A DNA stretch of 64,000 nucleotides from Aestuariibaculum sediminum. Lineage in GTDB: Bacteria > Bacteroidota > Bacteroidia > Flavobacteriales > Flavobacteriaceae. The stretch lies in assembly GCF_014596945.1 (NCBI RefSeq), contig NZ_JACVXB010000008.1, forward strand, positions 74,329 to 138,328. The letters run 5' to 3'. The first letter of the stretch is position 1. Every line of letters begins with the position of its first letter. The notes beneath the pieces are model-generated. The model worked only from the letters and a program-made list of their open reading frames with translations, had not been told where the DNA came from and made no database searches. The position numbers and the translations under genes were made by a program. This document shows, piece by piece, positions 36,583 through 64,000 of the stretch.

Positions 36583-36584
36583 GA

Positions 36585-37817: not shown

Positions 37818-37819
37818 TT

Positions 37820-38377: not shown

Positions 38378-38419
38378 AAATTAACCATAATTAGAAAAAA
38401 CCAACTTTTTAAAGTAAGG

Positions 38420-38427
38420 TAATTTTG
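38420..38427 (+). promoter_or_regulatory. Candidate -7 box upstream of copA
   Basis: TAATTTTG matches TAnnTTTG and lies 29 bp before the copA ATG. No -33 TTTG is present at the expected distance, as at the start of the island, which fits activator-dependent promoters. It suggests that copA and the genes after it can be transcribed separately from the pump genes. Confidence 0.45.
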
Positions 38428-38455
38428 CAATGGTAAATTTTAACAACTAAAAATT

Positions 38456-40957: not shown

Positions 40958-40959
40958 AA

Positions 40960-41670: not shown

Positions 41671-41672
41671 TA

Positions 41673-46516: not shown

Positions 46517-46816
46517 CTAGCAATACCAAAAACCCAGAACGCGCTAATTGGTCCAAAAAGCTGCAACCGAGCCAATGGCATAGGTAGGAACTTTTTTAGC
46601 GGTAATAGACCAGTTGTTTTTTAATGCCAACAGATGAAGGGTGGCTGATACTGCAACGACAAGTATGATTTGGCCAAGTTCAATACCTATCTTGAAAAAA
46701 GCTAAGGCTAATGGAATTTCCTTTTGTGGAAGCCCTACCTCGGTTAAGGCTCCAGCGAAACCAAATCCATGCAAAAGACCAAATGAAAAGGCAACGAGCC
46801 AGGGTTTTAGCTCTCT
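46517..46816 (-). pseudogene. HupE/UreJ-type membrane protein, 3' remnant
   Basis: Only the last ~90 codons survive: LKPWLVAFSFGLLHGFGFAG, then LTEVGLPQKEIPLALAFF and a final hydrophobic helix. A TAG at 46544-46546 cuts the end, after which the expected RVLGFW continues in frame to double stops at 46517. The 5' part is lost; it is joined directly to a fragment of the peptidyl-prolyl isomerase gene in another frame near 46815. Confidence 0.8.
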
Positions 46817-47272
46817 CGGTAAGATTGGTGTGATTATCTGGCGTGAAAATAATTTGATACAAGCTATATTTATAAGGGGTAACATACGTATCTTTATTTT
46901 TATCAAAATACGCCATAAGATTTTCTTCGGTAGCAGGAGCCAAAAGACCAGTTAAATCCTGACCGAGAAATTCCTTTTTTTGCGCCAATCTGCGATTTAC
47001 TATTTCGTGGTTATGATCCAGATTCATTCTTAACGCCTCACAGTATAGAACTTCCTGATTAATGTATTTGTTAATGAGTCCATCTAGTTCTTCTTTGGTT
47101 GGAGCTCTTTCTCACTGCATACACCAAAGTTCAGCCATATGTTCTATGTCGGTATTATCAACAATAATTTCTTCATCATCAGTATTTTTATTTACCGAAT
47201 TATGTATAACAAAAATGAGAGCCCCCAATACAAAAAAATGTAATAAAGGCTCTGTAAGTAATTTTTTTTCAT
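46817..47272 (-). pseudogene. Parvulin-like peptidyl-prolyl isomerase, 5' remnant
   Basis: The ATG at 47272 is followed by a run of eight As that puts the start out of frame with the body. In the next frame the gene reads KLLTEPLLHFFVLGALIF, then the membrane anchor, PTKEELDGLINKYINQEV, LRMNLDHNHEIVNRRLAQKK and PYKYSLYQIIF. A TGA at 47112-47114 interrupts it where a Trp is expected (MQ*ERAPT). The 3' half, with the isomerase domain, is missing, and the sequence runs into the HupE fragment. It is 5 bp after the DUF3604 pseudogene, so the three were one operon. Confidence 0.78.
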
Positions 47273-47277
47273 TTATT

Positions 47278-48458
47278 TTAATTTAAATTATACCAGATAG
47301 GTGATGTGTAAGCACGTTCTTGTAAGGTTCTTGGTGCATCGTCGGTCATTTTTAAATTGTATTTCATAGCATCGAATGTTGTCCATCTGGGGGTAGGGAT
47401 TTCTAAAACTCGAACATAGTAAAATGCTTCAAGATTTGGATCGAATTCCAGGTCGCTCCAAAAGGTTTTTTAATTCAGTGTCTCCAATGGTGTTTGTTCA
47501 AGTTGCTGTTGCAACATCAACAGTATTGCCAACTGGAGGTAATTTACCGCAGATATCTAAATTTCGTTTTTCAGCGTCGCCCCCAAACCACATTAAATAT
47601 TTTTTCATGAGTGTTTCCTTCGGCATCTAATCAGCCTTTAACCACTTGAATACGATCTAAATTGCCACTAGTAGGATCTTTAAGCGCGCTAATTAAAAAG
47701 GTAGGCGCTTTACCTTCTGGATCATTACTAATATCGCCTCTCATAGGTACGCCTTTATTATAACCTTTTACAATATAATTAGGATCGTTAAAATCGCAGG
47801 CTGCATAATTGAACCCACCAAAAAAAAGAACGGTCATTCTTGAACCTGTAGTAGCGTAGGTTTCTTTACGTTTCATAGCATCCCAAAGCGCTGCTCTGGT
47901 ATTGGATTCAGCGCAAACACCAATGTAACCTGATGCTTCCATTTGCCATCAGTGTACAAATCCTAATGGGAAATCTAATGCTTTTTCGTCCCAACGCTCA
48001 GGGCTAGGTTCAGATGAAGCATATTTACCCAGTAATTGTCTTCTTCGGCTGTAGATAGCGACGTATGTGAATCTGTACCACTGGCAAATCCGTATTTAAA
48101 TGGATTAATTCCAAGATCAGCTTCATGTTTTAACCATTTTTGAGCGCTTTTCTGGTATATTCCCTTTCCAGCATTTCTTTTGTTATGTGGCGCTAATAAC
48201 CTCTTCGCCTCGTGCAAAACGCAAAACTCCTTCAGGATCTAAGGGTTTACCTACGGCTCCTGCATCGGCAGACTAGGCTGTATGCAAGTGCTGGTCGCCC
48301 CAGTATACATTTTTTTAATGGTTTACTAGTACTTCTACTTCTTTAGATGCAGCCATTGGTGTTGTTTCTTAATTGGGTTGTTGCTGTTCTTTTTTAGCGT
48401 TGTTACCATTAAAAATGAATATTAGTGCTGTTAGGGTAAATAACTTTGTTGTTTTCAC
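47278..48458 (-). pseudogene. DUF3604 protein, heavily degraded
   Basis: Pieces of one protein in changing frames are found in order. They are a signal-like N-terminus (KTTKLFTLTALIFIF), KNVYWGDQHLHTA, SADAGAVGKP, then a jump of roughly 200 codons to [62 protein letters not shown] and the C-terminal FYYVRVLEIPTPRWTTFDAM ... SPIWYN. In-frame stops are at 48369, 48315, 48273 (TAG), 48183, 47949, 47631 and 47498 (lower coordinate of each stop codon), with frameshifts near 48130, 48030 and 47465. DUF3604 proteins are exported and of unknown function. The gene cannot make a product. Confidence 0.85.
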
Positions 48459-49574: not shown

Positions 49575-50297
49575 TTAAGATTTAGAAAGAATACTAATCA
49601 GTGAAGCATGTGGTGGTGGGGTAAAGTCGTAAATAGCATCAGGGATAATCGGGTTCAAAACCCAGTTGCTAAATGTTGTTTCAAACTGCAAGTTGTTTTC
49701 GTTTTTGTAAACTATAACAATACGTTTGGGTAACATAACCGCATTGGCAGTAATCCACAGTTGGACATGTTTTTCTGTATTCGAGGCTGTTATGTAAAAG
49801 CACTTATCGTCGTTTACATCGCGTTGTCCTTTGTAGCTTATTGTGTCGAAACTTTCTATGAGGTCGTCTGTGAAGGAAGGATAAAAAAAGTCGGCAGCAG
49901 GAAACTTGAAATCGAAGGCCATGTGCATAGAGTCAATCATGGTTAGAATGGTTTCCGGAGCTTCCAGAGTAACATAATTGTTTTCGTCCAAGGAATAATA
50001 GGAAACATAATCCCCGTCATACCAATAACCAAAATTACCGCCATCACCTTTAGTTGTGGAGGTAAACTTGTTAGGGCCTGTCATAGCAATGCTGCTTTTT
50101 GCATAAAAAGTACTGAGATTTCCTTGGTCGTCAAGTTTGTCTGTAGCGGTGTTTATGTTGAATTCAACCGATTCTAAGCTTCCAAGGATATCGGCCATTT
50201 TGTCTATAATATATATAGCTGTAGAATCTATGTTTTTAGTTTGTGCATTTGAAAATAATACCAAAAGTAGCGTAACAAAGCAAAAGTGTTTTTTCAT
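49575..50297 (-). CDS. DUF2092-like exported protein
   Basis: 240 aa with signal peptide (about 1-19, ending SNAQT). The body is a LolA/LppX-like half-barrel of beta-strands, with VEFNINTATDKLDDQGNL, the GYWYDGDYVSYYSLDENNY stretch and PKRIVIVYKNENNLQFETTF, ending in the typical FDFTPPPHA-like (YDFTPPPHASLI). DUF2092 proteins may bind lipids or act in the envelope; this is not proven. It is cotranscribed with the DUF6515-like gene 12 bp downstream. Confidence 0.78.
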   Translation of the reverse strand: MKKHFCFVTLLLVLFSNAQTKNIDSTAIYIIDKMADILGSLESVEFNINTATDKLDDQGNLSTFYAKSSIAMTGPNKFTSTTKGDGGNFGYWYDGDYVSYYSLDENNYVTLEAPETILTMIDSMHMAFDFKFPAADFFYPSFTDDLIESFDTISYKGQRDVNDDKCFYITASNTEKHVQLWITANAVMLPKRIVIVYKNENNLQFETTFSNWVLNPIIPDAIYDFTPPPHASLISILSKS

Positions 50298-50399
50298 ATG
50301 ATTAGTGTTAATTGAACGATAAGGAAGCAGGCGATTTATTTTGAAGAAGTGCTTTTTTTTTGTGATCTTTAAAAAAAAAGCTTAAACTGAAACCATAAT

Positions 50400-50435
50400 A
50401 AAAGAGCGGCTATTATTAGTAATCGCCGCTCTTTT
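50400..50435 (-). terminator. Intrinsic terminator of the DUF2541-like gene
   Basis: A perfect 11-bp GC-containing stem (50400-50410 with 50425-50435) is A-rich on the distal side when read on the minus strand. It separates this gene from the DUF2092-like gene. Confidence 0.8.
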
Positions 50436-50437
50436 AT

Positions 50438-50839
50438 TTATTTTTTATCTTTTTTACCCCAAACTTCTACCTTAGCTTTTTTGGTTACAAGCATGGCGCC
50501 TTTAGAATCGTATTCTAATTCCAGATGCTTTACTTTATCACCTTTCGAAGGGACATTATACGGTACCGAAGACATGCCTTTTGTTAATACACCAAGGCCT
50601 TTGGCATCGTATTCTTTTTTCTCTCCATTATCCATAACGATGGTAATGCTTTTTAATTCTAATGTGCCTTGGGTGCATTTTACTTTAACTTTATTAATGT
50701 CTCGTTCAGAGCCCACTAAGGTAACTTTGTCTTTTTCATTTTTAAAAGCAACAGTTTTTTCAGCTAATTTTTTCCATGAATCGTTTTGAGCGTAAGTGCT
50801 TAGGGAAGCACAAAGGAGTAGCAAGAATAAATATTTCAT
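50438..50839 (-). CDS. Small exported beta-rich protein, DUF2541-like
   Basis: 133 aa. A signal peptide (about 1-17, ending TYAQ) is followed by a mostly beta domain: DKVTLVGSERDINKVKVK, ITIVMDNGEKKEYDA, then KHLELEYDSKGA and KAKVEVWGKKDKK. The pattern of a residual surface sheet with a final VEVWGKK strand recalls DUF2541 (YaaI-like) proteins, but the match is by eye only. Function unknown. It is followed by its own terminator and so is probably monocistronic. Confidence 0.7.
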   Translation of the reverse strand: MKYLFLLLLCASLSTYAQNDSWKKLAEKTVAFKNEKDKVTLVGSERDINKVKVKCTQGTLELKSITIVMDNGEKKEYDAKGLGVLTKGMSSVPYNVPSKGDKVKHLELEYDSKGAMLVTKKAKVEVWGKKDKK

Positions 50840-50955
50840 AGTGAAAGGTTTATGTTAAAAAATAATAGACTTAAATTTAGTGAATTTTCTTCACTTTTTA
50901 AATCTATTTTAATATTTAATAATTACGTAACCTTGTTCTAAAAATGAATTTAATA

Positions 50956-51549
50956 TTATGAATGCCTTTTGTTTAAATCGAATAGAAGAAATAAAACTTC
51001 ATTAAGTTGATTGCCTATCAACCTTCTTAATATGCGGTATGCTTTAGTAATCTGCCCTTCTACCGTTTTTATAGAAATATTTAAATATTCGGCGATTTCA
51101 TTGTTGGTTAAGCCTTCTTTTTTACTAAGTAAAAATATTTCTTTGCATTTCGCAGGCAATTGTTCAATACCTTTCGTAACTAATGCTATTTTTTTTGATA
51201 GAATTTCGGCATTATCGTCCTCAATCGTTTCATTTACAGCTTCAATATAAGTGTCGTCTAAGGATTGTAATGATTTTTCTTTGTGATAATGACTAATAAA
51301 ATTATTGAAAGTACTTTTGTAAAGAAGATTTTTAATCTGTAATTCTGGATTTAATTTTTTTCTGTATTTCCAGGTTTTTAAAAATGTATTTTGAACAATG
51401 TCTTCGGCGGTTGCTTCATCTTTGCTTAAGTTTAAAGCGTAAATAAAAAGGGGCTTGTGGTAAGTGTTTATAAGATAAGTGAATGCGCCTTCATCTCCAA
51501 TTTGGAGTTGATGTATTAGTGATTCGTTATTTTCATATGAAGAAGCCAT
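50956..51549 (-). CDS. ECF sigma factor, FecI type
   Basis: 197 aa from the ATG at 51549 (MASSYENNES). An in-frame TTG 45 bp upstream is less likely because the added residues do not fit the family. Region 2 is FTYLINTYHKPLFIYALNL with DEATAEDIVQNTFLKTW. Region 4 is LPAKCKEIFLLSKKEGLTNN ending in EIAEYLNISIKTVEGQITKA. It should direct RNA polymerase to the downstream STN-SusC operon when released by the FecR protein. It is divergent from fecR instead of upstream of it on the same strand, with 133 bp between the start codons. Confidence 0.9.
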   Translation of the reverse strand: MASSYENNESLIHQLQIGDEGAFTYLINTYHKPLFIYALNLSKDEATAEDIVQNTFLKTWKYRKKLNPELQIKNLLYKSTFNNFISHYHKEKSLQSLDDTYIEAVNETIEDDNAEILSKKIALVTKGIEQLPAKCKEIFLLSKKEGLTNNEIAEYLNISIKTVEGQITKAYRILRRLIGNQLNEVLFLLFDLNKRHS

Positions 51550-51682
51550 CAAAAAAGGTATCGCGAAAAATGGGAAATGTTTCGCAAATGTCAAAAAAAA
51601 ATTAATATAAAGTAAAAAAAGTAGAAATAAAGTAAGGGTAGTAGAAAATTATCAAGTAATAAGTAAAAATGAATTAGAGTTA

Positions 51683-52870
51683 ATGGCTCCAGAAATAGAA
51701 AACATATTAATAAAGTATTTATCTCGCTCGGCAAATGCAGAGGAGTTAAGCCAACTGTCTGACTGGTTGAAAATTGAATCGAATAGAAAGGTGTTTAAGG
51801 ACTACGTGCAAACACATTATGCTATTAGTTACAGTGTAAAAACACCTAATACAACTGAAACGGTTAAGGTGCTTTTACATAATATTCGAGAAAATGAGCC
51901 GAAGGTACGTAAGCTAAATGTTGTGTCTGTTTTAAAATATGCGGCTGTTCTTGTGTTATTTGTTGCTGTGGGTACAGGTGTTTATAATCAATTTTATAAC
52001 AATGCCATTGATCCAGAAGAAGCCATTAAGGATATTGTGATTGGGCATGAAAGAGCAACACTTGTGTTATCTGATGGAAGCACGGTCGATTTAGAAATGA
52101 ATAAGAACACATTAATCGCTCAGGATGACATGGCTAAAATTGAAACTACCAACGAGGGCTTAGTATATAATGTTTCTGAATCTACAGAAGTTTTAAACAC
52201 GTCTCCTAAAATAAATACATTACATGTTCCTGTTGGTGGAGTGTATCAAATTCAGTTGCCCGACGGAACGAAAGTATGGTTAAATTCGGCGACCTCTTTG
52301 GAGTTTCCTGAACGATTTGTTGGAGACCAACGTGCAGTGAAGTTACAAGGTGAGGCGTATTTTAAAGTCACTAAAAGTACGAAACCTTTTATTGTGGAAA
52401 CCGAATCGGCCAACATTACTGTATTAGGAACACAGTTTAATGTTTCAGCATATAAAGGCGATAGTTATTTCTCATCCACTTTAGTAGAGGGAAGCATTGC
52501 GTTGCAATCTGACTTAAAAGCAAGTAAAAGTAATATATTAGAACCTGGGCAACGTGCTGTTATTCAAAAATTCGATGCTAGCATCGATATCTCTAAAGTT
52601 GATACAGAAGTTTACACAGCCTGGAAAGAAGGTAAGTTTTATTTCGAACGTGAAAGCTTAGAACAGATTTTAATTAAAATGAGCCGCTGGTACAATGTTG
52701 ATGTGTTTTTTGAAACCGAAACCTTGAAACACGAATATTTTACTGGTGTAGTGTATAAAAACAAATCGGTAGACTATCTACTGAATATGATAAGTCAAAC
52801 AACCAAAGTAAATTATAAAATAACTAAAAATAAAAAAAATGGGAAATATGAAATAACAATAACCAAGTAA
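51683..52870 (+). CDS. FecR-family anti-sigma factor
   Basis: 395 aa. The cytoplasmic N-terminal segment (ILIKYLSRSANAEELSQLSD) would bind the sigma factor. A single TM helix lies at about 85-105 (YAAVLVLFVAVGTGVY). The periplasmic FecR domain is around 175-270 (VPVGGVYQIQLPDGTKVWLN, LQGEAYFKV, VLGTQFNVSAY), and a DUF4974-type C-terminal domain (LEQILIKMSRWYNVDVFFE) contacts the transporter's STN domain. It lies 107 bp before the STN-SusC gene, so it is the signalling partner of that transporter. Confidence 0.92.
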   Translation: MAPEIENILIKYLSRSANAEELSQLSDWLKIESNRKVFKDYVQTHYAISYSVKTPNTTETVKVLLHNIRENEPKVRKLNVVSVLKYAAVLVLFVAVGTGVYNQFYNNAIDPEEAIKDIVIGHERATLVLSDGSTVDLEMNKNTLIAQDDMAKIETTNEGLVYNVSESTEVLNTSPKINTLHVPVGGVYQIQLPDGTKVWLNSATSLEFPERFVGDQRAVKLQGEAYFKVTKSTKPFIVETESANITVLGTQFNVSAYKGDSYFSSTLVEGSIALQSDLKASKSNILEPGQRAVIQKFDASIDISKVDTEVYTAWKEGKFYFERESLEQILIKMSRWYNVDVFFETETLKHEYFTGVVYKNKSVDYLLNMISQTTKVNYKITKNKKNGKYEITITK

Positions 52871-52888
52871 AAGCTAGCGGTAATAAAA

Positions 52889-52916
52889 AATGGGACATGC
52901 TGCAACATCTCCCATT
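52889..52916 (+). promoter_or_regulatory. Hairpin in the fecR-susC intergenic region
   Basis: A 7-bp perfect stem (AATGGGA 52889-52895 with TCCCATT 52910-52916) encloses 14 nt, with weaker outer pairing between AGCTA at 52872 and the TTAGCT near 52928. It has no following T-run, so it is not a standard terminator. It may shape the SusC leader. Confidence 0.35.
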
Positions 52917-52977
52917 AGAATGATTGTTAGCTAAAAAAAATATTAATACTCAATTATTTAACTAATCACACAAATTT

Positions 52978-55900
52978 ATGGAAAAAAAGTTAACCACAGT
53001 TAATTGTAGGTTACTCAGTAAACTCAAACCTTTAATTATTCGATTCATGAAACGTTCTCTCATTTTATGTATCTCATTTTTAAGTATTTCTGCCTTTTCG
53101 TTCTCTCAAAAAGTTTCCTTGAAGATGGGAAAAGTTACGCTTTATGAGGCTCTGAAAGAAATAAAAAATCAAACCGAAGTAGATTTCTTCTATAGTGACA
53201 AGGAAGTAAATATAGATCGTGTTGTTTCGGCAAACTTTAAAAATGCAGAACTTATTGATGTACTTTATACTTTACTAGGAAATACTTACAATGTTCAAAA
53301 AACTACCGAAGGTATCATCCTAATAAGTCCAAAAAACCCAGCGGTTTTTCAAAACGAAATTCAAGTTAAAGGTGTTGTTACTGATAACTCAGGTATGCCT
53401 CTTCCAGGCGTAACGGTTTTAGTAAAAGGTACTAAGTATGGTACAACAACCGATTTTGATGGAAATTATGTGCTACGGGTAGACGAAACTTCAACTTTAG
53501 TTTTTAGTTACATAGGTTATAAAACAACCGAAGTTCCTGTAGAAGGTAGAACAGAGGTAAATGTACAATTGGAAGCCGATGTTAGTGAGCTAGAGGAGAT
53601 TGTAATTACCGGTATCGTTGAAAGGAAAAAAGAAAGCTTTACAGGGGCAACAACTACCGTGAAGGGCGAGGAGTTAAAAGCTATCGGAAATTTAAATATT
53701 ATAGAAAGTTTAAAAACTTTGGATCCTTCGTTTGTTATTGTTGAAGATAATTTGTTAGGATCTAACCCTAACCGATTACCAAATATTGAGGTTCGTGGAA
53801 AAACGAGTATCTCAACCGATGACTTAAGAGATGAATTTGGAGGAAACCCAAATCAACCTTTATTTGTATTAGATGGATTTGAAACTACATTAAGAACCAT
53901 TATCGATTTAGATATGAATCGCGTGGCTTCCATTACCATTTTAAAGGATGCAGCTTCTACGGCTTTGTATGGAGCAAGAGCTGCAAATGGTGTAATTGTT
54001 GTAGAAACAAAAAAACCAGAAGAAGGAAAACTTCAAATTAATTATACTTCCGATTTTAGAGTGGATATGCCTGATTTAAGTGATTATAACTTAATGAACG
54101 CCTCTCAAAAATTAGAATACGAACGCCTATCTGGATTATGGACAGCGAGTAGTGAAGTTCAAAATTTACAGCAATTTGAGTTAGATGCACAATACAACGA
54201 AATATTAAAAGAAATTAACCGTGGTGTAGATACGTATTGGCTAAACGAGCCTGTACGCGTGGGAACAACACTTGGTCATTCGGTTTATGCTGGCGGTGGC
54301 GCCGAGAATGTTACTTATGGTATTGGTTTAAATTATAGATCGCAAGATGGAGTAATGAAAGGTTCTGGTCGTAACACCTGGGGGACCAATTTAGATTTAA
54401 CTTACCGTAAAGGAAGCTTAAATATTAGCAACCGTTTACGTATTAATGGTTATGATGCCGATGAGTCTCCTTATGGTTCGTTCTCAAATTTTGCGCAAGC
54501 TAACCCATATTTTAGAAAATATGATGAGGATGGTGAAATATCAAGATTCTTAAATATTCAGGATTACTGGGATGGTGCTGCAGGACGAGCGCGAATAGGG
54601 AACCCCTTGTATAACGCTATGTTAAACTCAAGAGATAATACTGAAAATATTCAAATTACAAATAACCTTCAGGCAATTTGGAGAGTAACCGATAAATTAA
54701 GGTTAACTTCAGGCTTTCAAATTAGTAAAATTAGCACAACAAGCGAAGTATTTGTAGCTCCTGAGGATACAAGATTTGAAAACAAATCTTATTTAGAAAG
54801 CGGAACTTATAATAATAATCACGCCGAAAACTTTGGTTACACATTTAATACGATGGCTACTTACGCAACAGTGTTAAATGAAAAACATGCCATTACAGGA
54901 AACTTACGTGGTTCTGTTGAAGAGAATAGTACTTCAAGTTTAGGTGTTAGAGCTGTAGGTTTCCCATTAGGAACTAATGGAAATCCAGCGTATTCTTTTA
55001 GCTATGCACCAAATTCGAAACCTTCTACAGGAGAGAATACATACAGAAGGGTAAACTTGGTAGCAAGTGCCAACTACGCTTACGATAAAACTTATTTTTT
55101 CGATTTAAACTATCGTATTGATGGTTCTACCGTATTTGGTTCAAACGAAAAATACTCACCGTTCTGGTCTGTAGGTGCTGGTTGGAACTTAGTAAACGAG
55201 TTCGATTTAGATAAAGCTGTATTTTCTATTTTACGTTTAAGAGGTAGTATTGGTCGCACCGGTAACCAAGGATTTGGTAACTTGTCTGATGTGTCCGTGT
55301 ATACCTTTAACACTTACATAAATAGTTTTGGTCAGTCTGTAGATTTAACAACTTTGGCGAATCCAGATTTAAGATGGCAAAATACTATGGATTATAGTTT
55401 TGGTATTGAAACATCATTCTTTAAAAACAGAATAACAGCACAGATTAATACCTATAAAAAAATTACCGATCCATTAGTGGTTAGTATTGATTTACCTTCG
55501 TCTACAGGAGTGGCAGCTTATCCTTTAAACGCAGGTTTAATGGATACGAAGGGGTTAGAAGTTATTTTTAGAGGGTCTCCAATTTATAATCTTAAAGAAG
55601 GAACTGTTTGGACTGTTGGTTTAAATTTGGCTGCCGTAAAAAGTAAATACGACAACTTTAGGAATGTGTTACAATCTTTAAATGATGAGGCTCTTGAAAA
55701 TCAGTCATTATTGCGTTTTAGAGATGGATATAGTCCCGACGATTTATGGGCAGTAGAATCTTTAGGTATCGACCCAGCCACTGGTGAAGAGGTATATTTA
55801 ACTGCCAATGGAGAACCTACGTTTGAATATAATGCCGATGATATTAAAAAAGTTGGTAATAGTCGCCCAACAGTAGAAGGAGTGTTTACCAATAATGTAA

Positions 55901-56328
55901 GGTATAAAAACTTTAGCCTTGGTATTAATCTAAGATACCGTTTTGGTGGCGATGTATTTAACAGAGCATTATTTAATAAAGTAGAGAATATAACAAGAAG
56001 TGGACGTATTAATAACCAAGATGTAAGAGCCTTAACCGACCGATGGCAAAACCCTGGCGATGTAACGCAATTTAAATCTATTTCTAATTTCGATAATGTA
56101 GGTTTATCATCACGTTTCATTCAAGAGGAAAATGTAATTATAGGAGAATCTATTAATATAGGTTACCAGTTTGAAAATCAGTCATGGATGGATACAATAG
56201 GGTTAAAGCGTTTAAAATTGAATGCTTACATGAACGATATTTTCCGTATTTCTTCAATTACAGCAGAAAGAGGAATTGATTATCCGTTTGCACGTACAGT
56301 GTCATTTAGTTTAAATGCAAACTTCTAA
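52978..56328 (+). CDS. SusC/RagA-type TonB-dependent transporter with STN domain
   Basis: 1116 aa. A long N-terminus with signal helix (about 24-45, RSLILCISFLSISAFSFS) is usual for FecR-linked SusCs; an alternative ATG at 53047 would shorten it by 23 residues. The STN (secretin/TonB short N-terminal) domain covers ~47-115 (VTLYEALKEIKNQTEVDFFY). Then come the carboxypeptidase-like domain (VKGVVTDNSGMPLPGVTVLV), the plug (FVLDGFETTLRTIIDLDMN, ILKDAASTALYGARAANG) and a barrel ending FSLNANF. It probably imports a peptide or protein-derived ligand, since its neighbours encode thiol and protease functions and no glycoside hydrolase. It signals through FecR to the divergent sigma factor. Confidence 0.93.
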   Translation: MEKKLTTVNCRLLSKLKPLIIRFMKRSLILCISFLSISAFSFSQKVSLKMGKVTLYEALKEIKNQTEVDFFYSDKEVNIDRVVSANFKNAELIDVLYTLLGNTYNVQKTTEGIILISPKNPAVFQNEIQVKGVVTDNSGMPLPGVTVLVKGTKYGTTTDFDGNYVLRVDETSTLVFSYIGYKTTEVPVEGRTEVNVQLEADVSELEEIVITGIVERKKESFTGATTTVKGEELKAIGNLNIIESLKTLDPSFVIVEDNLLGSNPNRLPNIEVRGKTSISTDDLRDEFGGNPNQPLFVLDGFETTLRTIIDLDMNRVASITILKDAASTALYGARAANGVIVVETKKPEEGKLQINYTSDFRVDMPDLSDYNLMNASQKLEYERLSGLWTASSEVQNLQQFELDAQYNEILKEINRGVDTYWLNEPVRVGTTLGHSVYAGGGAENVTYGIGLNYRSQDGVMKGSGRNTWGTNLDLTYRKGSLNISNRLRINGYDADESPYGSFSNFAQANPYFRKYDEDGEISRFLNIQDYWDGAAGRARIGNPLYNAMLNSRDNTENIQITNNLQAIWRVTDKLRLTSGFQISKISTTSEVFVAPEDTRFENKSYLESGTYNNNHAENFGYTFNTMATYATVLNEKHAITGNLRGSVEENSTSSLGVRAVGFPLGTNGNPAYSFSYAPNSKPSTGENTYRRVNLVASANYAYDKTYFFDLNYRIDGSTVFGSNEKYSPFWSVGAGWNLVNEFDLDKAVFSILRLRGSIGRTGNQGFGNLSDVSVYTFNTYINSFGQSVDLTTLANPDLRWQNTMDYSFGIETSFFKNRITAQINTYKKITDPLVVSIDLPSSTGVAAYPLNAGLMDTKGLEVIFRGSPIYNLKEGTVWTVGLNLAAVKSKYDNFRNVLQSLNDEALENQSLLRFRDGYSPDDLWAVESLGIDPATGEEVYLTANGEPTFEYNADDIKKVGNSRPTVEGVFTNNVRYKNFSLGINLRYRFGGDVFNRALFNKVENITRSGRINNQDVRALTDRWQNPGDVTQFKSISNFDNVGLSSRFIQEENVIIGESINIGYQFENQSWMDTIGLKRLKLNAYMNDIFRISSITAERGIDYPFARTVSFSLNANF

Positions 56329-56335
56329 TTAAAAC

Positions 56336-57814
56336 ATGAGAAAAATGAAAAAATATATAAAGTTTTTATTTGCATTAATGGGTTGCATAATTGTGGCATC
56401 TTGCGATAATTATCTGGATGTTAAGCCCGAAAATAAGTTCTTAGAGGAACAAGTGTTTAGCACAAAGCAAGGAATTTCCGATGCTTTGAATGGAATTTAT
56501 GGCGATATGATTAGCAATAACGGTTACGGCGGAAATCTAACTCTGACCGCTGTAGAGCTTTTAGGACAGCGTTATAAACCATTAGATTTTTCAGGATCGT
56601 CGCCTTTTTATAATATGGCGAGTTTCGAATACGAAGATCCAGGTGTACAAGGTTATTTTAGTGCCATTTGGGGGCAGTTGTATACCAATATACTTACTAT
56701 GAATAATTTCTTAGAAGCTATTGAAGAATATCCAAATGTATTGTCAGAAGAACAGAAGGACTTAGTAAAAGGAGAAGTATATGGTTTACGCGCTATGCAT
56801 CACTTAGATTTATTAAGGTTATTTGGTCCAATATATAGTACAAATGCTACCGATGAAGCGATACCTTATTATACGAAACCTTTAGCTGAGGCAACTCCTT
56901 TTCTGTCGGCTGAAAAGGTTATGGAACTGATCTTAGATGATTTAAATATGGCAGAAATGTTATTAACCAATGATCCTGTGAGAACTGCTGGGCCACAAAG
57001 TTTAGATAATGAATTAATCATAGAGTTGGATGATAAGTTTATTTTATCCAGAAACAATAGAATGAATTATTATGCCGTTAAGGCTTTACAAGCCAGAGCG
57101 AATTTATATGCCGGTGATAGCGAATCGGCTCTAGTAGCAGCGAAAGCAGTTATCGACGAAGCGTCGCAATGGTTTCCATGGACACAACGCGCGGAAGTGT
57201 TCGGAGCAGGTAACTCTCCAGATCGCATTATGTCTAAAGAAGTGTTGTTTTCTACAATTAATACAGCTTTGTATAGCCGTCATAACAGTTACTTTGCTGC
57301 AAATTTATCCGACGCTGCAATTTTAACTTCAGATCAAGATCGTTTGGATCAAGTGTTTGAAGGCGATTTTAACGACTATCGTTATACCACAACATGGTTT
57401 TTACCAAGTAATGGGGCTAAGGATTTTCCAACCTTTTTTAAGTATGCTGAAATTACAGATACTGATACCGATGATTTGCATATTAAATTTATGCAACCTT
57501 TAATTAGAATTACTGAAATGTATTATATCGCTGCTGAAACGGAACCTAATTTAGATATTGCTCTAGGTTATTTGAATACAGTGAGGAATAATAGAGGATT
57601 AATAAGTCTCGATTCACAAAATGTGACAGATATTCAAATCGAAATAATGAAGGAATATCAAAAAGAATTTTATGGTGAAGGACAACTGTTTTTTTATTAC
57701 AAGCGTTTAAATATAGCTGAAATTCCTAATGGACTGCAACCTGCAGGTACCATTGATATGGGAGTAAATCAATATGTTGTGCCAATTCCAAGGTCAGAAA
57801 CCGATTATCGTTAA
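56336..57814 (+). CDS. SusD/RagB-type substrate-binding lipoprotein
   Basis: 492 aa. The lipobox ends at Cys23 (IIVASC) and is followed by DNYLDVKPENKFLEEQVF, the classic SusD N-terminus. Family landmarks are GEVYGLRAMHHLDLLRLFG, an SusD TPR helix (YAVKALQARANLYAGDSE) and the C-terminal QPLIRITEMYYIAAETEP with YLNTVRNNRGL. It starts 7 bp after the STN-SusC gene; ATG 56345 is an alternative start. It forms the outer lid of that transporter. The ligand is unknown. Confidence 0.93.
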   Translation: MRKMKKYIKFLFALMGCIIVASCDNYLDVKPENKFLEEQVFSTKQGISDALNGIYGDMISNNGYGGNLTLTAVELLGQRYKPLDFSGSSPFYNMASFEYEDPGVQGYFSAIWGQLYTNILTMNNFLEAIEEYPNVLSEEQKDLVKGEVYGLRAMHHLDLLRLFGPIYSTNATDEAIPYYTKPLAEATPFLSAEKVMELILDDLNMAEMLLTNDPVRTAGPQSLDNELIIELDDKFILSRNNRMNYYAVKALQARANLYAGDSESALVAAKAVIDEASQWFPWTQRAEVFGAGNSPDRIMSKEVLFSTINTALYSRHNSYFAANLSDAAILTSDQDRLDQVFEGDFNDYRYTTTWFLPSNGAKDFPTFFKYAEITDTDTDDLHIKFMQPLIRITEMYYIAAETEPNLDIALGYLNTVRNNRGLISLDSQNVTDIQIEIMKEYQKEFYGEGQLFFYYKRLNIAEIPNGLQPAGTIDMGVNQYVVPIPRSETDYR

Positions 57815-57831
57815 ACTATAAATCAATACTG

Positions 57832-58620
57832 ATGAAAAAGATTTTATACACCCTAATTATATTTTGCAGTTTAGCACTTACCATAGTGTCTTGTGCAAAA
57901 GAAGAGCTTCCTTTTTTTGAAGGAAAAAATGTTGTTTATTTCGAATGGGCTAAAGAAGGTACGCCAGGTAATAGATTTCAAACTATAGACAGCATGTCTG
58001 TGTCTTTTGCTTTCGATTTACCCGAAATAACAGAAACAGTCGTGCAATTACCCGTTAAATTACAAGGGTATCCTGTAAGTAATGATCGTATTGTGAATTT
58101 AGAAATAGTAGGCGCTAGTACCAGCATTGAAGGCACACATTATAGTATGCCAACAACTGTTGTTATTCCTGCCGATTCTATTCGTGGCTATTTACCAATA
58201 ACTTTTTACCGTACACCAGATTTAAAAGAGGATGCTGTATCATTAAAAATCAAGTTAATTTCTAATGAAGATTTTGATGCGAATCTTTTAAGTACTAATG
58301 ACGCTGCGAATGCCGATAGATTAGCAAGTTATAATGAGTTTGAAATAACCTTGTCTGATATTTTAACTGAACCTGCTATTTGGTCTAGTTTTATGGGGTA
58401 TTATTTAGGGGATTTTTCGCCTAAAAAACTGTATTTGTTTGCCGAAGTAAATGGCATACCAGTACCAAACTACGATGAGGAGCAGGCAGACCTTAATAGT
58501 TTTTTCGCTTATGGGAAAGTGTTTAAAAATTATTTAGCTGACCAAAAAGCAGCAGGGACTCCTGTATTGGAAGAAGACGGATCAGAAATGATTTTAGGCC
58601 CTTATGCCTTTTTCTTATAA
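57832..58620 (+). CDS. DUF4843 lipoprotein
   Basis: 262 aa. The lipobox ends at Cys21 (TIVSC), followed by AKEELPFFEGKNVVYFEW and the SMSVSFAFDLPEITETVVQL segment, both typical of DUF4843. The middle is a Calx-beta-like sheet (GTHYSMPTTVVIPADSIRGY). DUF4843 lipoproteins are recurrent third genes after SusCD in FecR-controlled loci. They are probably surface-exposed accessory binding proteins; the function is not known. It begins 17 bp after the SusD gene. Confidence 0.85.
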   Translation: MKKILYTLIIFCSLALTIVSCAKEELPFFEGKNVVYFEWAKEGTPGNRFQTIDSMSVSFAFDLPEITETVVQLPVKLQGYPVSNDRIVNLEIVGASTSIEGTHYSMPTTVVIPADSIRGYLPITFYRTPDLKEDAVSLKIKLISNEDFDANLLSTNDAANADRLASYNEFEITLSDILTEPAIWSSFMGYYLGDFSPKKLYLFAEVNGIPVPNYDEEQADLNSFFAYGKVFKNYLADQKAAGTPVLEEDGSEMILGPYAFFL

Positions 58621-58637
58621 TTAAAAAGTAAAGAAAC

Positions 58638-60128
58638 ATGATTAAAAATATAAAATATAAATATTTAATTGCTTCACTTGTCGCTGTGTTAGGCGTGTCT
58701 TGTATGGACGATAAAGGGAATTACGATTATTCCGATATTAACGAAGTGCAGTTTGTTGGGGAAACCGATGATTTTAAAGTAACAAGATTTGAAAACCTTG
58801 TTATTACACCTGAATTAAATTTCACAAAAGATGAGTCGGCTTCTGGAAATTATGCCTACCGTTGGGAAGTTTTCGAAAATAGGTTGTCTGGAGGTACCGA
58901 ATTGGAATTGCTGTCTACTGAGAGAGATTTAGACGCTACTATTGCCTTAAAACCTGGAGGTTACTTTTTGTATTTAACGGTTACCGATTTGGAAACAGGA
59001 ATTGAATTTCAAAGGCAGTTTGACCTAGATGTTATTAACAGTACTTTTGAAGGCTGGTTAGTATTAAGTGAGGTCAATGGCGGGTCTCGCTTAGATATGG
59101 TGTCTAATTTAGAAACAGGATATACCGTACTAAACAATGTACTCGGGGGGTCCGGTTTAAATTTAGAAGGGGCTCCAGATTTTCTTTACACTTACGCTTA
59201 CAATAGTACGATGTATGGTGTTTATGTATCTACTGAAGGAAACGGAACAACAAAAATTGATCCAGATACCTTCGATTGGGTAGAGCCTTATGGTATAGGT
59301 TACGAGTTTATACCTCAAAAAGCTTCTAATTTTAAGGTGGACAACTTATTATCAAATTCAGGGTGGTCTAGTTATGCAGTGGCTAACGGTGATGCGTATT
59401 TTTATTATTCTGTGCAACGAATTAGTTACGGCGCTCCAATTAATAGGATAAGTAACGAAACATTTAGCGTGTCACCTATGGTGGCCAGAGGGACGCCTGG
59501 TAGCTATATGATTTTTTACGATACTACAAATAAGCGTTTTGTAAGAAGTAGAAGAGGGGTGTTTTCTGTAATGCCTGAGGCAGCTTCAACATTATTCGAT
59601 TATAATAATGTAGGCATGGATTTAGTATATATGGAAGGTAATGAATACAACAGTAGTAATGGTGCTGCAACCTTTGCTGTTTTACAAGACCCGACTAATT
59701 CTAAATACTATTTTACCTATTTTAATTCTTCTAATAATGCTCAGTTACATTATGGTGAAATGGTTGGTGCTACCGATATCAATTTGGCAACACAATTCGC
59801 TGTGAGTCCTGAATATGGCTATTTGTTTTATGTGGTAGGAAATAAAGTGTATCAATACGATTTTTCAATTGGTAAAACAACTCTTGTTTTAGATAATGGT
59901 AATAAAGAGATATCTTTTATTAAATTCCATGACTTTTGGGCTAACACCAAGTATGAAGCATTTAGTAAGCTACTTATTGTGGGAAGCTATGATTCTGCAG
60001 GAGCCGAAGGCGAAAATGGAACTTTAGATTTTTATTCTATTTTACCCTTAAATGCTGGGCTTGATTTGCAAACTTCGTATTCTGGATTTGGAAAAATAAA
60101 GAGCGTCACATATAGAGAACGGTCTTAA
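58638..60128 (+). CDS. PKD-like family lipoprotein
   Basis: 496 aa. The lipobox ends at Cys22 (VLGVSC), followed by MDDKGNYDYSDINEV, the typical opening of the family. An Ig/PKD-like domain lies around 50-135 (YAYRWEVFENRLSGG, GYFLYLTVTDLETGIEFQRQ). The C-terminal ~330 residues look like a beta-propeller of kelch/WD type (GWLVLSEVNGGSRLDMVSNL and later YYFTYFNSSNNAQLHYGEM). It is usual next to DUF4843 proteins in the same kind of SusCD locus and is probably a surface accessory protein. A hairpin follows it. Confidence 0.82.
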   Translation: MIKNIKYKYLIASLVAVLGVSCMDDKGNYDYSDINEVQFVGETDDFKVTRFENLVITPELNFTKDESASGNYAYRWEVFENRLSGGTELELLSTERDLDATIALKPGGYFLYLTVTDLETGIEFQRQFDLDVINSTFEGWLVLSEVNGGSRLDMVSNLETGYTVLNNVLGGSGLNLEGAPDFLYTYAYNSTMYGVYVSTEGNGTTKIDPDTFDWVEPYGIGYEFIPQKASNFKVDNLLSNSGWSSYAVANGDAYFYYSVQRISYGAPINRISNETFSVSPMVARGTPGSYMIFYDTTNKRFVRSRRGVFSVMPEAASTLFDYNNVGMDLVYMEGNEYNSSNGAATFAVLQDPTNSKYYFTYFNSSNNAQLHYGEMVGATDINLATQFAVSPEYGYLFYVVGNKVYQYDFSIGKTTLVLDNGNKEISFIKFHDFWANTKYEAFSKLLIVGSYDSAGAEGENGTLDFYSILPLNAGLDLQTSYSGFGKIKSVTYRERS

Positions 60129-60151
60129 ATTAATTCCTTTTAAGGATTAGA

Positions 60152-60191
60152 AATTTTAAAGGGTTGGTTTTATAATCAGCCCTTTAAAATT
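60152..60191 (+). terminator. Hairpin between the PKD-like and thioredoxin genes
   Basis: A 14-bp stem with one G-U pair (about 60152-60165 with 60177-60190) and a 10-nt loop. The right side ends in AAAATT, not a clean T-run, so it may attenuate or mark RNA processing rather than stop all transcription into the thioredoxin genes. Confidence 0.5.
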
Positions 60192-60242
60192 AATAGTACG
60201 AATATTAGTTGCTATAGATTATATAATAACATAAACATAATA

Positions 60243-61085
60243 ATGAAACATATTTTAACAAGTTTTCTATTGTTTGCTGGTGTACTTACATCTTTATCAG
60301 GTGTTGCTCAAACAAAATTTCTAAATACTTCTTGGGACGAGGTTAAAAAAACGGCACAAAAAGAAAACAAATTAATTTTTGTCGATTTGTATTTTACGGG
60401 TTGTTTTCCTTGCGCGCAAATGGATAAAATGGTATTCCCTGACCCAAAAGTTTCTAAAATATTAAACGATTCTTATGTGTCCTTTAAATCCGATATTTTT
60501 AAAGAAGAAATAGGGAAAAAACTCGCTCGAAAATACGGGGTAACTGGTTTTCCTTCATTTATAATTTTAGATCAAAAAGGAAGAACTATAGAGGTGGTTT
60601 CTGGCTTTCATGCAATAGATGAATTTGTTGAACTGTTAGAGTTAACCAAAACAAAAGCTGCCAAGCGGGAGTTTAAATCGTATTCAAAGGATTTAGAGGG
60701 TGATTATCCTGAGTTTTACAATGATGCGTACCTTAATAATAATCGCAAGATGAGTTTCGAAATTGTTGATAGCTACTTGAAAACTCAAAAAGATCTGAGT
60801 GACGAAATACCTTTTGTAGTAATAAAAGGTTTAAGAGTAGGAGGAGTTTATGCCGATTATGTTATTAAAAACGCTAAAGAGTTATCAGGTAAATATGGTA
60901 AAATGCCTGTCCGTAATTATTTGGCTTCAATAGTAAATATACGAGCGAAACAATTTTCTGCAGAGGATAATAGAACAGCTTTCAATAAACTTTTAGAGCA
61001 GGTAAAACAAATGTTTAACCATGAAGAATGGAGTCGATTTATGCCGGGCTTTGAAAAGACCTATAAAAAATATGCAGAGCAATAA
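60243..61085 (+). CDS. Exported thioredoxin-fold protein
   Basis: 280 aa with signal peptide (about 1-22, ending GVAQT). The thioredoxin-like domain (about 25-130) has the CxxC site FTGCFPCAQM (Cys54, Cys57), and the cis-Pro region GVTGFPSFIILDQKGR. The C-terminal ~150 residues are helical and not recognised. The short active-site loop CFPC is unlike thioredoxin's CGPC and suggests a reductase or isomerase in the periplasm. It starts 114 bp after the PKD-like gene, after a hairpin, and 17 bp before the TlpA-like gene. Confidence 0.87.
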   Translation: MKHILTSFLLFAGVLTSLSGVAQTKFLNTSWDEVKKTAQKENKLIFVDLYFTGCFPCAQMDKMVFPDPKVSKILNDSYVSFKSDIFKEEIGKKLARKYGVTGFPSFIILDQKGRTIEVVSGFHAIDEFVELLELTKTKAAKREFKSYSKDLEGDYPEFYNDAYLNNNRKMSFEIVDSYLKTQKDLSDEIPFVVIKGLRVGGVYADYVIKNAKELSGKYGKMPVRNYLASIVNIRAKQFSAEDNRTAFNKLLEQVKQMFNHEEWSRFMPGFEKTYKKYAEQ

Positions 61086-61102
61086 AAGCTCATTTTTTAA
61101 TA

Positions 61103-62167
61103 ATGATTAAAATTTTGGAAATGAATATAGTTAGAACCTTTTTCTTAACCTTAGTTACCGGTTTACTGTGGGCTTGTAATACTAAGGAACCGCATCCTGG
61201 ATATGTTGAGATATCTGGACAAATATTAAATTCAAAATCTAAATCTTTTAAGGTGTGTTCTATGGGTGGAGACGCTAAAGATATTTCGATTTTGGACGAT
61301 GGAACATTTATAGATAGTTTTAAAGTTTCGCCGCAGCGCTATAAACTTCAGTTGTTTTTTGAAGATGGTAAATTCATGACTGGTTTGTATGCTCAAAATG
61401 GGTCTGATATCAAACTTAATGTCAATGTAAACAAGTTTTCAGAAACTATAAGGTTTAGTGATGATTTTGCTGATTATAATAACTATTTGAGTGACAAAGC
61501 CAATATTATGCAGAGTGATATTGGGTTTAATAAAAAAATATGGTACCGCTACAATCTTGAAGATTTTAATGGACAAGTGAATACTTTGGAGACGGCATTA
61601 AAAAATGCGTTACATTCATATAAGAATATTTCTGAAGAACATATTGAATCGGAGGAAAAGTATATTAATCGTATACTGGAAAATATAACATCTAAATACG
61701 ATGAGGAACATAGTTACGCGGCCAAGTTAAGTAAGGGAAGTAAGTCTCCAGAATTCAATAGCTACGAGAATTTTGATGGAACTAAAACCTCTTTGTCTGA
61801 TTTTAAAGGTAAATATGTCTTTATTGATGTTTGGGCAACTTGGTGCTCACCATGTAAAGCACAGATTCCCTATTTAGAAGAGCTTGAAAAGGAATATAAA
61901 AATGAAAATATAGTCTTTGTAAGCATGTCGGTTGATAAACCATCTGATCGAGATAAATGGAAAAAGATGGTTGCCGATAAGAACCTGTCTGGTGTTCAAA
62001 TTTTAGCGCCAAGTGCTTTCGAATCAGAGTTTGCTCAGGCTTACAATATTAATTCAATACCAAGGTTTATATTAATTAATCCTGATGGCGTGATTGTTGA
62101 TTTCGATGCACCTCGACCATCAAATAACGAAGCAATCCATAAATTATTATCGAATGTAAAGTCCTAA
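61103..62167 (+). CDS. TlpA-like thioredoxin-family lipoprotein
   Basis: 354 aa. The lipobox ends at Cys25 (GLLWAC). An N-terminal beta-domain of the DUF4369 kind (about 30-115, PGYVEISGQILNSKSKSFKV) and a helical middle precede the TlpA/ResA-like thioredoxin domain from ~210. That domain carries KGSKSPEF, the CxxC site WATWCSPCKA (Cys248, Cys251) and the cis-Pro loop INSIPRFILINPDG. An in-frame ATG at 61121 is an alternative start that still keeps the lipobox. It would reduce disulfides at the periplasmic side. It lies just after the thioredoxin gene and ends in a strong terminator. Confidence 0.9.
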   Translation: MIKILEMNIVRTFFLTLVTGLLWACNTKEPHPGYVEISGQILNSKSKSFKVCSMGGDAKDISILDDGTFIDSFKVSPQRYKLQLFFEDGKFMTGLYAQNGSDIKLNVNVNKFSETIRFSDDFADYNNYLSDKANIMQSDIGFNKKIWYRYNLEDFNGQVNTLETALKNALHSYKNISEEHIESEEKYINRILENITSKYDEEHSYAAKLSKGSKSPEFNSYENFDGTKTSLSDFKGKYVFIDVWATWCSPCKAQIPYLEELEKEYKNENIVFVSMSVDKPSDRDKWKKMVADKNLSGVQILAPSAFESEFAQAYNINSIPRFILINPDGVIVDFDAPRPSNNEAIHKLLSNVKS

Positions 62168-62189
62168 AACGTGTTAATCAATTGTAAAA

Positions 62190-62223
62190 AAAAAGGGTGT
62201 TTCAATTTTGAAATGCCCTTTTT
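62190..62223 (+). terminator. Intrinsic terminator after the TlpA-like gene
   Basis: A 15-bp stem with two wobble pairs (62190-62204 with 62209-62223), a 4-nt loop and a T-run within the right arm. It ends the SusCD-thioredoxin operon. Confidence 0.85.
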
Positions 62224-62592
62224 GCTTTCTCAAATTTGTTTTTTTCATTTTAATAATCGGATTTGTCGCTACTAATTTGTCAACAAAACAGGTGTTAAAT
62301 TCAATATTTTTAAATTTTAACATATTCTTAATAGGGGTAAAGTACAAAAAAAGAGTCCTATAAGTGTTAGTGATTTATTTGCTAACTGAAAATTAGGAGT
62401 TAAAGTAAGTAAAACATTGATTTTATATGCAAAATTAAGGTAAAGTGCTGGTAATTATAAAATTAACAAAATATTAACAGCGCGCTTTTCAGTTTTTGCG
62501 TCTTTAATCAAGTAGATGTCAATAAAAAGGACATTTATTATTTCATATTTTAAGTTTGTTTGAGTTAGTCATTAAACAAGTTACTTGAGATG
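62224..62592. other. Non-coding stretch with possible small-RNA transcription unit
   Basis: No reading frame of note is seen in this 370-bp AT-rich stretch. A TAAGTTTG at 62551-62558 matches the Bacteroidota -7 consensus, without a good -33 box, and it is followed about 40 bp later by a strong terminator. A short RNA of roughly 50-60 nt could be made. Nothing else was recognised. Confidence 0.3.
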
Positions 62593-62620
62593 AAGAGGAC
62601 TGGTTCATCAGTCCTCTTTT
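62593..62620 (+). terminator. Strong terminator with no gene in front of it
   Basis: A 9-bp perfect stem (62593-62601 with 62610-62618), extended by one G-C pair at the loop, is followed by TTTT. The nearest upstream gene already has its own terminator at 62190-62223. Confidence 0.75.
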
Positions 62621-62825
62621 ATTAAAACTATCTTAAAATTAATATGAGATAATAATCAAAGTTTTAGTTTTGGCTAGTTTAAAATTATAAGGTAAAATAC
62701 TGAAGTTACTTTCAATATCCTTCTAAATTGTTTTGATTTTGTCTTATTTAAAGTTAAAAAGTGGCTTTATTAAGATAGAATGTTATTAATAAATAAGAAT
62801 TAACTAATTATAAACACAAAATTTA

Positions 62826-64000
62826 ATGAAAACAGTTTTATCGTACGTTCTATTAGTAGCTTCTGTTTTTTGTGTGTCTGCACAAGATTTAACTCAGCCC
62901 TTACCAGTAGATCAGAGTTTTAAAAAAGGGGTGTTACCAAATGGGATGACCTATTACATTAAAAGTACCGACGTAGTAAAAGATGCTGCGAGTTATTACA
63001 TTATTCAAAATGTAGGTTCAATTTTAGAGCATGAAAATCAACGTGGTTTAGCTCACTTTTTAGAGCATATGGCTTTTAATGGAACAGAAAACTTTCCTGG
63101 AAAAGGTATTTTAAATACGCTTCAAGAGCATGGAGCTGTTTTTGGAAAAGATATTAATGCGTACACATCGTTTGATGAGACTGTATATAATTTAAGTAAT
63201 ATACCTACTAAAGATGGTTTGGTAGATACGTGTCTTACTGTTCTTCAAGATTGGTCTAATTACCTTTTACTTACCGAGGAGGAAATCGATGCAGAGCGCG
63301 GAGTAATTAAAGAAGAGTGGCGTACACGTCAAAATGGTAGAGCTAGGTTGTATGAAATTTCTATGCCAATTACCTACAATAAATCGAAATATGCAGAAAG
63401 AATGCCAATCGGACTTATGTCGGTGGTAGAAGGTTTTGATTATAAAGCATTACGCGATTTTTATCATGATTGGTACAGAACCGATTTACAGGCTATTGCT
63501 GTAATTGGTGATGTTAATGTAGAAGAAGTTGAGAAAAAAATAATTGAAAGATTCTCAAAAATTCCAGCTGTCGAAAATCCAAAGGAGCGTTACACAGTGA
63601 ATATCCCTGATAATAAAGGAATGTTATATAGCTTAGGTATGGATCCGGAAGTGTCTTCGGCTAGTATCAGCTTTGGAATTCGTCATAAAAAATCGTTAGA
63701 AGATGAAACGGTAGCTGATTTGAAAAAATCACTTTTAGAAGGAATTGCTATGAGTGCGCTATCGTCTAGAATTAGAGAAAAGTCGCAACAACCCGAAGCT
63801 TCGTTTTTAGGAGCTAGTGCTGGTTACTACAGTTTATCTCGTACTTCAAAAGTATTTAATGTAGAGGTTACTCCTAAACCCAATCAGCAGCAAGAGGCCT
63901 TTAAAGAAGTATTAACAGAGGTTATTCGTGCCGTTAAGTTTGGGTATACACCTTCTGAGGTTAACAGAATCATTACAAATTTTAATAGCTCTTATCAAAA
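62826..64000 (+). CDS. M16 family zinc protease (insulinase/pitrilysin type), 3' end outside window
   Basis: The frame opens at ATG 62826 and runs to the window edge (391 codons seen; family members of this type exceed 900 aa). Signal peptide about 1-20 (ending CVSAQD). The inverted zinc motif HFLEH lies at residues 77-81 in GLAHFLEHMAFNGTENFPG, with the downstream Glu in ERGVIKEEW. The second domain begins near KALRDFYHDWYRTDLQ. It should degrade peptides in the periplasm. It lies 660 bp after the TlpA-like gene, beyond two terminators, so it has its own promoter; its placement still suits a peptide-uptake locus. Confidence 0.92.
   Translation, partial: MKTVLSYVLLVASVFCVSAQDLTQPLPVDQSFKKGVLPNGMTYYIKSTDVVKDAASYYIIQNVGSILEHENQRGLAHFLEHMAFNGTENFPGKGILNTLQEHGAVFGKDINAYTSFDETVYNLSNIPTKDGLVDTCLTVLQDWSNYLLLTEEEIDAERGVIKEEWRTRQNGRARLYEISMPITYNKSKYAERMPIGLMSVVEGFDYKALRDFYHDWYRTDLQAIAVIGDVNVEEVEKKIIERFSKIPAVENPKERYTVNIPDNKGMLYSLGMDPEVSSASISFGIRHKKSLEDETVADLKKSLLEGIAMSALSSRIREKSQQPEASFLGASAGYYSLSRTSKVFNVEVTPKPNQQQEAFKEVLTEVIRAVKFGYTPSEVNRIITNFNSSYQ

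Follow-up and report, generated by a model that had tools for sequence, protein, structure and literature searches.

What does an outer membrane importer take up when its genes are followed by those of thioredoxin-fold proteins and a peptidase? The question is raised by a SusCD locus close to the end of a 64,000-nucleotide stretch of DNA from Aestuariibaculum sediminum (contig NZ_JACVXB010000008.1, positions 74,329 to 138,328 of the forward strand), a member of a genus of marine origin; the whole stretch is called the window below. SusCD importers are mostly assigned to glycans. The original prediction, made from the DNA letters alone, was that this one imports folded or disulfide-bonded peptides, which are reduced in the periplasm and cleaved by an M16 peptidase. 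We find that the locus is a SusCD importer under sigma/FecR control and that by gene content it is not a polysaccharide locus, as scans of its unit contain no carbohydrate-active enzyme. The catalytic motifs are intact, the gene set is present, thioredoxin-fold genes are conserved with its branch of SusC proteins, and proteases recur. A peptide or protein is the probable cargo.

Gene content of the locus

The features are as follows, with coordinates beginning L001 being window positions minus 50000.

50956..51594, minus strand: extracytoplasmic function (ECF) sigma-70 factor, divergent to FecR (Pfam: Sigma70_r4_2 42.2 bits, Sigma70_r2 31.3 bits)
51683..52870, plus strand: FecR anti-sigma-like regulator, 395 amino acids, 0 cysteines (Pfam: FecR 73.6 bits, FecR_C 68.5)
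52978..56328, plus strand: SusC/RagA TonB-dependent transporter with plug and weak STN domain (NCBI TIGR04056 590 bits, cut-off 368.25)
56336..57814, plus strand: SusD-like surface lipoprotein, directly 3' of SusC (SusD-like_3 PF14322 54.8, cut-off 27; SusD_RagB PF07980 28.9, cut-off 23.1)
57832..58620, plus strand: DUF4843 lipoprotein (Pfam, 83.5 bits)
58638..60128, plus strand: PKD_2 (PF16407) lipoprotein (Pfam, 100.3 bits)
60243..61085, plus strand: thioredoxin-fold protein with CFPC and a signal-peptide-like N terminus (Pfam: Thioredoxin_2 47.6 bits)
61103..62167, plus strand: TlpA/redoxin-like protein with CSPC and a lipoprotein-like N terminus (Pfam: Redoxin 75.5 bits)
62190..62226, plus strand: hairpin with A and T runs on either side, which probably terminates the SusCD-thioredoxin unit (-17.3 kcal/mol, z -6.3)
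62455..62825, plus strand: region upstream of M16, with a hairpin at 62594-62617 (~74% identity to same-genus genome G115)
62826..L001:15633, plus strand: M16 peptidase of PqqL/FusC type, 935 amino acids, HFLEH at residue 77, E157 (Pfam: Peptidase_M16 92.1 bits)
L001:15653-16099, downstream of M16: DsbD_N-only (DsbD-alpha) protein with two cysteines (Pfam)
L001:16117-18096, after the DsbD_N-only protein: full DsbD (Pfam)
L001:18226-19272, after DsbD: second TlpA-like lipoprotein (Pfam)

Every gene named by the original prediction proved to be an open reading frame (ORF) where it had been placed, with Pfam matches above cut-off. Its "STN-SusC" holds for SusC, which exceeds the cut-off of the NCBI model, and is weaker for the STN domain, a probable one that scores 25.0 bits against the Pfam cut-off of 28.4. 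The absence of glycoside hydrolases, lyases and sulfatases that it reported was confirmed by Pfam scans of the genes from 50956 to L001:19272, and an Rfam search of 50000-64000 gave zero matches at gathering thresholds. The M16 ORF crosses the window end at 64000, beyond which the block continues with the DsbD_N-only, DsbD and TlpA-like genes and then an ORF resembling a class V aminotransferase, whose relative in locus L021 matches Aminotran_5. DsbD_N, DsbD_TM and the C-terminal thioredoxin domain (CVNC) are present with the expected paired cysteines; the NCBI DsbD, ResA and TlpA models give only matches below cut-off (ResA and TlpA for the CSPC protein). The block thus contains the components needed to carry electrons all the way from the inner membrane to thioredoxin-fold proteins in the periplasm, and the periplasmic reduction that had been proposed gains a candidate electron source in the DsbD beyond the window end.

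Thioredoxin-fold genes and proteases beside PKD_2

The distribution of PKD_2 is patchy. It occurs in 8/149 genomes of the window's family, in 8/395 of a draw from the phylum, in 38/121 of the family of genome G372 (one genome has up to 17 matches) and in 27/101 of the family to which Pedobacter genome G653 belongs; the window's own genome carries three matches. As the phylum draw seems dominated by near groups, draws centred on families were added. The 20-kb contexts of the PKD_2 loci, the window's own and the named loci L012 and L013 among them, were then mapped with profiles built from the window's proteins, and one rule was applied to this anchor set and to two controls: SusDs from the listed higher-scoring PF07980 matches, which lean to the glycan type, and FecR-controlled SusCD loci lacking PKD_2, the fairer control. 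Anchors at contig ends (three PKD_2, four control SusD) were left out of the counts, as was L012 from Aestuariibaculum suncheonense, which duplicates a locus in L016.

Of the PKD_2 anchors, 51/60 have a thioredoxin-fold gene downstream, made up of 14/17 in the window's family, 17/20 in sample f11 and 20/23 in the Pedobacter family. This compares with 0/24 for the control SusDs (Fisher p 6e-14, on the assumption of independent loci, which does not hold for related ones). The CxxC motif is kept in all 86 thioredoxin-fold ORFs of the PKD_2 contexts, most commonly as CGPC (n=50), and 6/60 loci have full DsbD or DsbD-alpha. That thioredoxin genes stay with this SusCD in relatives, as the original prediction required, is therefore borne out.

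In a tree of 98 rows, the 60 SusCs followed by DUF4843 or PKD_2 are divided from the rest by a single branch (local support 99), and the same branch is recovered among 117 rows after addition of FecR-controlled SusCs; these 60 tree rows differ as a set from the 60 PKD_2 anchors. The window SusC lies in this single PKD_2-linked branch.

Proteases of several unrelated families follow PKD_2 in at least 24 of the 60 runs, a lower bound because the Pfam scan covered 43/84 unassigned ORFs in the runs. M16 accompanies 9/60 PKD_2 anchors, 2/21 FecR anchors and 0/24 control SusD anchors, and within the window's family 9/17 PKD_2 loci. A retropepsin-type aspartyl protease is found at 11 PKD_2 anchors, no FecR anchor and one control SusD. 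Met-zincins occur in L060, L068, L077, L079 and L087, accounting for 9 of the 43 extra ORFs scanned; in L060 and L068 they stand in place of the thioredoxin-fold genes. An M60-like protein (N-terminal domain) is present in L020, S46 in L063 and a DPPIV-type S9 in L074. Unrelated proteases in one slot are the pattern predicted by a polypeptide substrate and favour it without proving it. The families listed from the scan of run ORFs (25 of 108) include GH115 and a GH2-type, each represented once, which means that carbohydrate genes stand at the far ends of a few runs.

For the window M16, the best solved relatives are 9ldy, an M16 entry (1.6e-158), for which our literature search found no paper, then the named PqqL (3.5e-69) and 6b03, a "putative zinc protease" (3.9e-48) that we take to be FusC. 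The label "near PKD_2" needs five changes on a 31-row M16 tree, and M16 beside PKD_2 SusCs has therefore been gained or lost more than once.

Further loci of the wider FecR-controlled SusCD class in the window's genome are L014, L015, L115/L119, L132 and L133. The last (G000:C11:132400-152399) is a FecR-SusCD locus with two M16 and four thioredoxin-fold genes and no PKD_2. Elsewhere, L092:8451-10328 (minus strand) encodes a 625-residue protein with a C-terminal DsbD_N, placed between two TlpA-like genes beside PKD_2.

Proposed function and competing explanations

We infer the cargo, its disulfides, the electron flow and the induction through FecR, and propose the following chain as the best-supported reading. 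SusD, DUF4843 and PKD_2 would bind the cargo at the surface, and SusC would import it with TonB energy. The CFPC and CSPC proteins, recharged by DsbD via DsbD-alpha, would reduce cargo disulfides, so that the cargo unfolds in the periplasm; the closed chamber of M16, predicted to admit unfolded chains only, would then cut the reduced cargo. As a whole, this scheme, in which SusCD under sigma/FecR control takes up peptides or protein fragments that are then reduced, and cut by M16, is possible, with the balance tipping slightly the other way. Much the same holds for its central step, in which the disulfides of the cargo are the target of the thioredoxin-fold proteins; this is close to an even call that we do not quite make in its favour. 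In the window, FecR has no cysteines, and those of SusC, SusD, DUF4843 and PKD_2 are only in the signal peptide or lipobox. Because the mature outer membrane proteins are cysteine free, the thioredoxins are not needed for disulfides of these proteins, which favours possible action on cargo.

Several observations weigh against this chain. Nine of the 60 PKD_2 loci have no thioredoxin-fold gene (L024-L026, L056, L060, L068, L076, L083 and L085), and in L024, L025 and L026 the PKD_2 SusCD is accompanied instead by M16 and a GldG-like ABC-2/ATPase/ABC-2 trio. A thioredoxin-fold gene is also found with 9/20 FecR-controlled SusCD loci lacking PKD_2 (10/21 anchors, the second SusCD of L115 being that of L119). 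Under the same assumption of independence, again not valid for related loci, 51/60 differs from 9/20 at p 0.0008, and 9/20 from 0/24 at p 0.0002. PKD_2 loci thus show the thioredoxin link most strongly, yet it is a property of the wider FecR-controlled SusCD class; the tie to this SusCD is conserved without being exclusive. Among solved structures, the best relative of the window SusC is 8aa4 ("SusC homolog"), with RagA close behind, and the match to the peptide-bound BT_2264 is much weaker (8.6e-20).

Coupling of M16 to the importer, which the original prediction had included, fares differently from its peptide cargo. M16 is absent from all 43 PKD_2 loci outside the window's family, so in distant relatives it does not stay with SusCD. 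Nor does it share an apparent transcription unit with SusCD in the window. The CSPC TlpA gene and M16 are ~660 bp apart, with two stable hairpins in the gap, and in G115 (L016/L017) a second SusCD unit occupies this place, so that two tandem sigma-FecR-SusC-SusD-DUF4843-PKD_2 units precede M16-DsbD there, against one in the window. M16-DsbD is therefore probably transcribed on its own, apart from the SusCD-thioredoxin unit. The second hairpin, around 62594-62617, folds at -17.0 kcal/mol (z -5.5), and is formed in G115 (L017) by different stem letters, within 400 bp before and at the M16 start that are 74% identical; a simple terminator scan of 60000-63000 listed no terminator, though both hairpins fold well. 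On the M16 tree, the window protein pairs with that of G115 and then with those of L034-L037, whose contexts have DsbD and no SusC (L036 is cut by a contig end). Ten of 20 M16 contexts have DsbD or DsbD-alpha, and ten have a SusC-labelled gene. M16-DsbD appears to be an older unit that became linked to SusCD loci repeatedly. What stands of the predicted peptide import is the cargo, favoured by the unrelated proteases, and the company of the thioredoxin genes; a tight coupling to M16 is not supported.

The same evidence bears on the explanations that compete with cargo reduction. The locus may import peptides while its thioredoxin-fold proteins keep envelope proteins (cysteine-bearing PKD_2 or SusD relatives, or M16), rather than cargo, reduced or repaired. 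TlpA and DsbD proteins have general envelope roles, which we counted in favour of this explanation, and among relatives 10/22 PKD_2, 3/25 SusD, 6/23 DUF4843 and 7/27 SusC proteins have more than two cysteines when those of signal peptides are counted, figures that also weigh against action on cargo. The window has kept its thioredoxins all the same, with no mature cysteines in FecR, SusC, SusD, DUF4843 or PKD_2, and we consider envelope repair unlikely, if a serious contender. Another possibility is that the SusCD-PKD_2 unit imports a glycan or other nutrient and that M16-DsbD is an incidental neighbour, an independent operon for envelope maintenance. Its apparently separate transcription unit agrees with this, as do M16-DsbD sets without SusCD in L034, L035, L037 and L044 (and in the contig-limited L036 and L042) and the abundance of glycan genes in the upstream part of the window. 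Against it, the thioredoxin-fold genes lie directly 3' of PKD_2 in the same run, a pattern that recurs in three family samples, and L021 and L029-L031 have M16, DsbD and PKD_2 in one same-strand run with other gene orders. Incidental neighbourhood is decidedly improbable.

Uptake of a metal or metalloprotein is a third reading, in which a thioredoxin relay and M16 would release iron, copper or heme bound in a protein or chelate after its import. Control by FecR and a sigma factor is classic for iron, and the window M16 is PqqL/FusC-like. In the Fus system, a TonB-dependent transporter is paired with an M16 protease of FusC type, which acts on the imported protein and frees iron from ferredoxin (PMC6793856, PMC6071955). 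Yet no metal transporter or heme gene is among the scanned genes of the unit, and in the part of an iron-stimulon study considered here TlpA, thioredoxin and FecR genes appear singly, without the set seen in the window (PMC10434189). Metal uptake appears improbable.

Cargo reduction could extend beyond this locus. Within Bacteroidetes, the DUF4843-PKD_2 SusC branch may mark a class of loci that utilize disulfide proteins, bringing their own line for reducing the cargo (from DsbD to TlpA/thioredoxin) and proteases that can replace one another (M16, retropepsin-type, Met-zincin, M60-like, S46, S9), with cysteine-rich peptides or even small folded proteins as nutrients; we offer this as a speculative and rather unlikely extension. 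If true, DUF4843 and PKD_2 would be markers of peptide or protein cargo, and many "polysaccharide" loci could be reassigned. A relay acting on cargo would also explain how cysteine-rich peptides are opened after outer membrane import, a step that to our knowledge is absent from the Fus and RagAB models. Our literature search found no paper on this gene set, nor, by title and abstract among open-licence full texts, one with the DUF4843 and PKD_2 (PF16132, PF16407) lipoproteins as its subject.

Known systems and neighbouring features

The closest functional likeness may be to protease-associated import (FusA/FusC, YddB/PqqL), which also places a TonB-dependent transporter beside a periplasmic two-half M16, and the shared logic would be that a polypeptide is imported and then cut. 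The window differs in having SusC/SusD with DUF4843 and PKD_2 in place of FusA, in its added thioredoxins and DsbD, and in FecR control. Eleven solved relatives of the window SusC at E <=0.001 bear SusC, RagA or TonB-receptor names, and none is named FusA. The locus would work like a protease-associated import system, but we do not file it there, since by sequence it has no FusA-type transporter. The Fus survey covers FusA homologues in Proteobacteria (PMC6793856, section 6), and its main text makes no mention of Bacteroidetes, thioredoxin, disulfide or DsbD.

SusCDs with peptide cargo are known. BT2261-64 of Bacteroides thetaiotaomicron and RagAB of Porphyromonas gingivalis are described with bound oligopeptides (PMC7782687), and a Flavobacterium SusCD has been proposed to import collagen peptides (PMC9723704). 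RagAB shares the SusCD machine with the window, RagA being the second-best solved relative of its SusC (5.4e-61). BT2261-64 is more remote, both in the distance of BT_2264 and in its lipoproteins: the suggestion that BT2261 and BT2262 are relatives of DUF4843 and PKD_2 is unsupported, as these profiles, searched to E 10, retrieved no member of the 5fq6 series. We know of no thioredoxin or DsbD part in the RagAB and BT2261-64 loci. DUF4843 has a weak profile link to the DUF1735 structure 3nqk (E 0.0025), and the PKD_2 profile has no relative among solved structures within the same E limit of 10. The models predicted for PKD_2 and SusD (three sequences) were poor, with mean predicted local distance difference test (pLDDT) scores of 46.3 and 47.5, and were not used.

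Polysaccharide utilization loci resemble the window unit in SusC, SusD, accessory surface lipoproteins and sigma/FecR control; among the genes scanned, the unit has thioredoxins and proteases instead of carbohydrate-active enzymes. With DsbD-TlpA/CcmG reduction the block shares DsbD-alpha, DsbD-TM and C-terminal thioredoxin domains with the expected cysteines, along with adjoining CxxC partners, and it differs in its sub-cut-off NCBI model matches and in its position beside an outer membrane importer.

Elsewhere in the window, positions 7960-28521 hold a starch/maltodextrin-type polysaccharide utilization locus, with an alpha-amylase family protein bearing a Por secretion tail, GH65 and GH97 by Pfam, and SusCD, LacI and MFS genes recognised by eye from their translations. 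An alpha-galactosidase is encoded at 45107-46357. A heavy-metal efflux set at 32836-43394 comprises an AcrB-type RND pump and, recognised by eye, TolC-like, copper ATPase-like and adaptor-like ORFs. On the minus strand, 46544-48217 contains apparently decayed genes, namely one fragment of HupE/UreJ and two of a DUF3604 protein.

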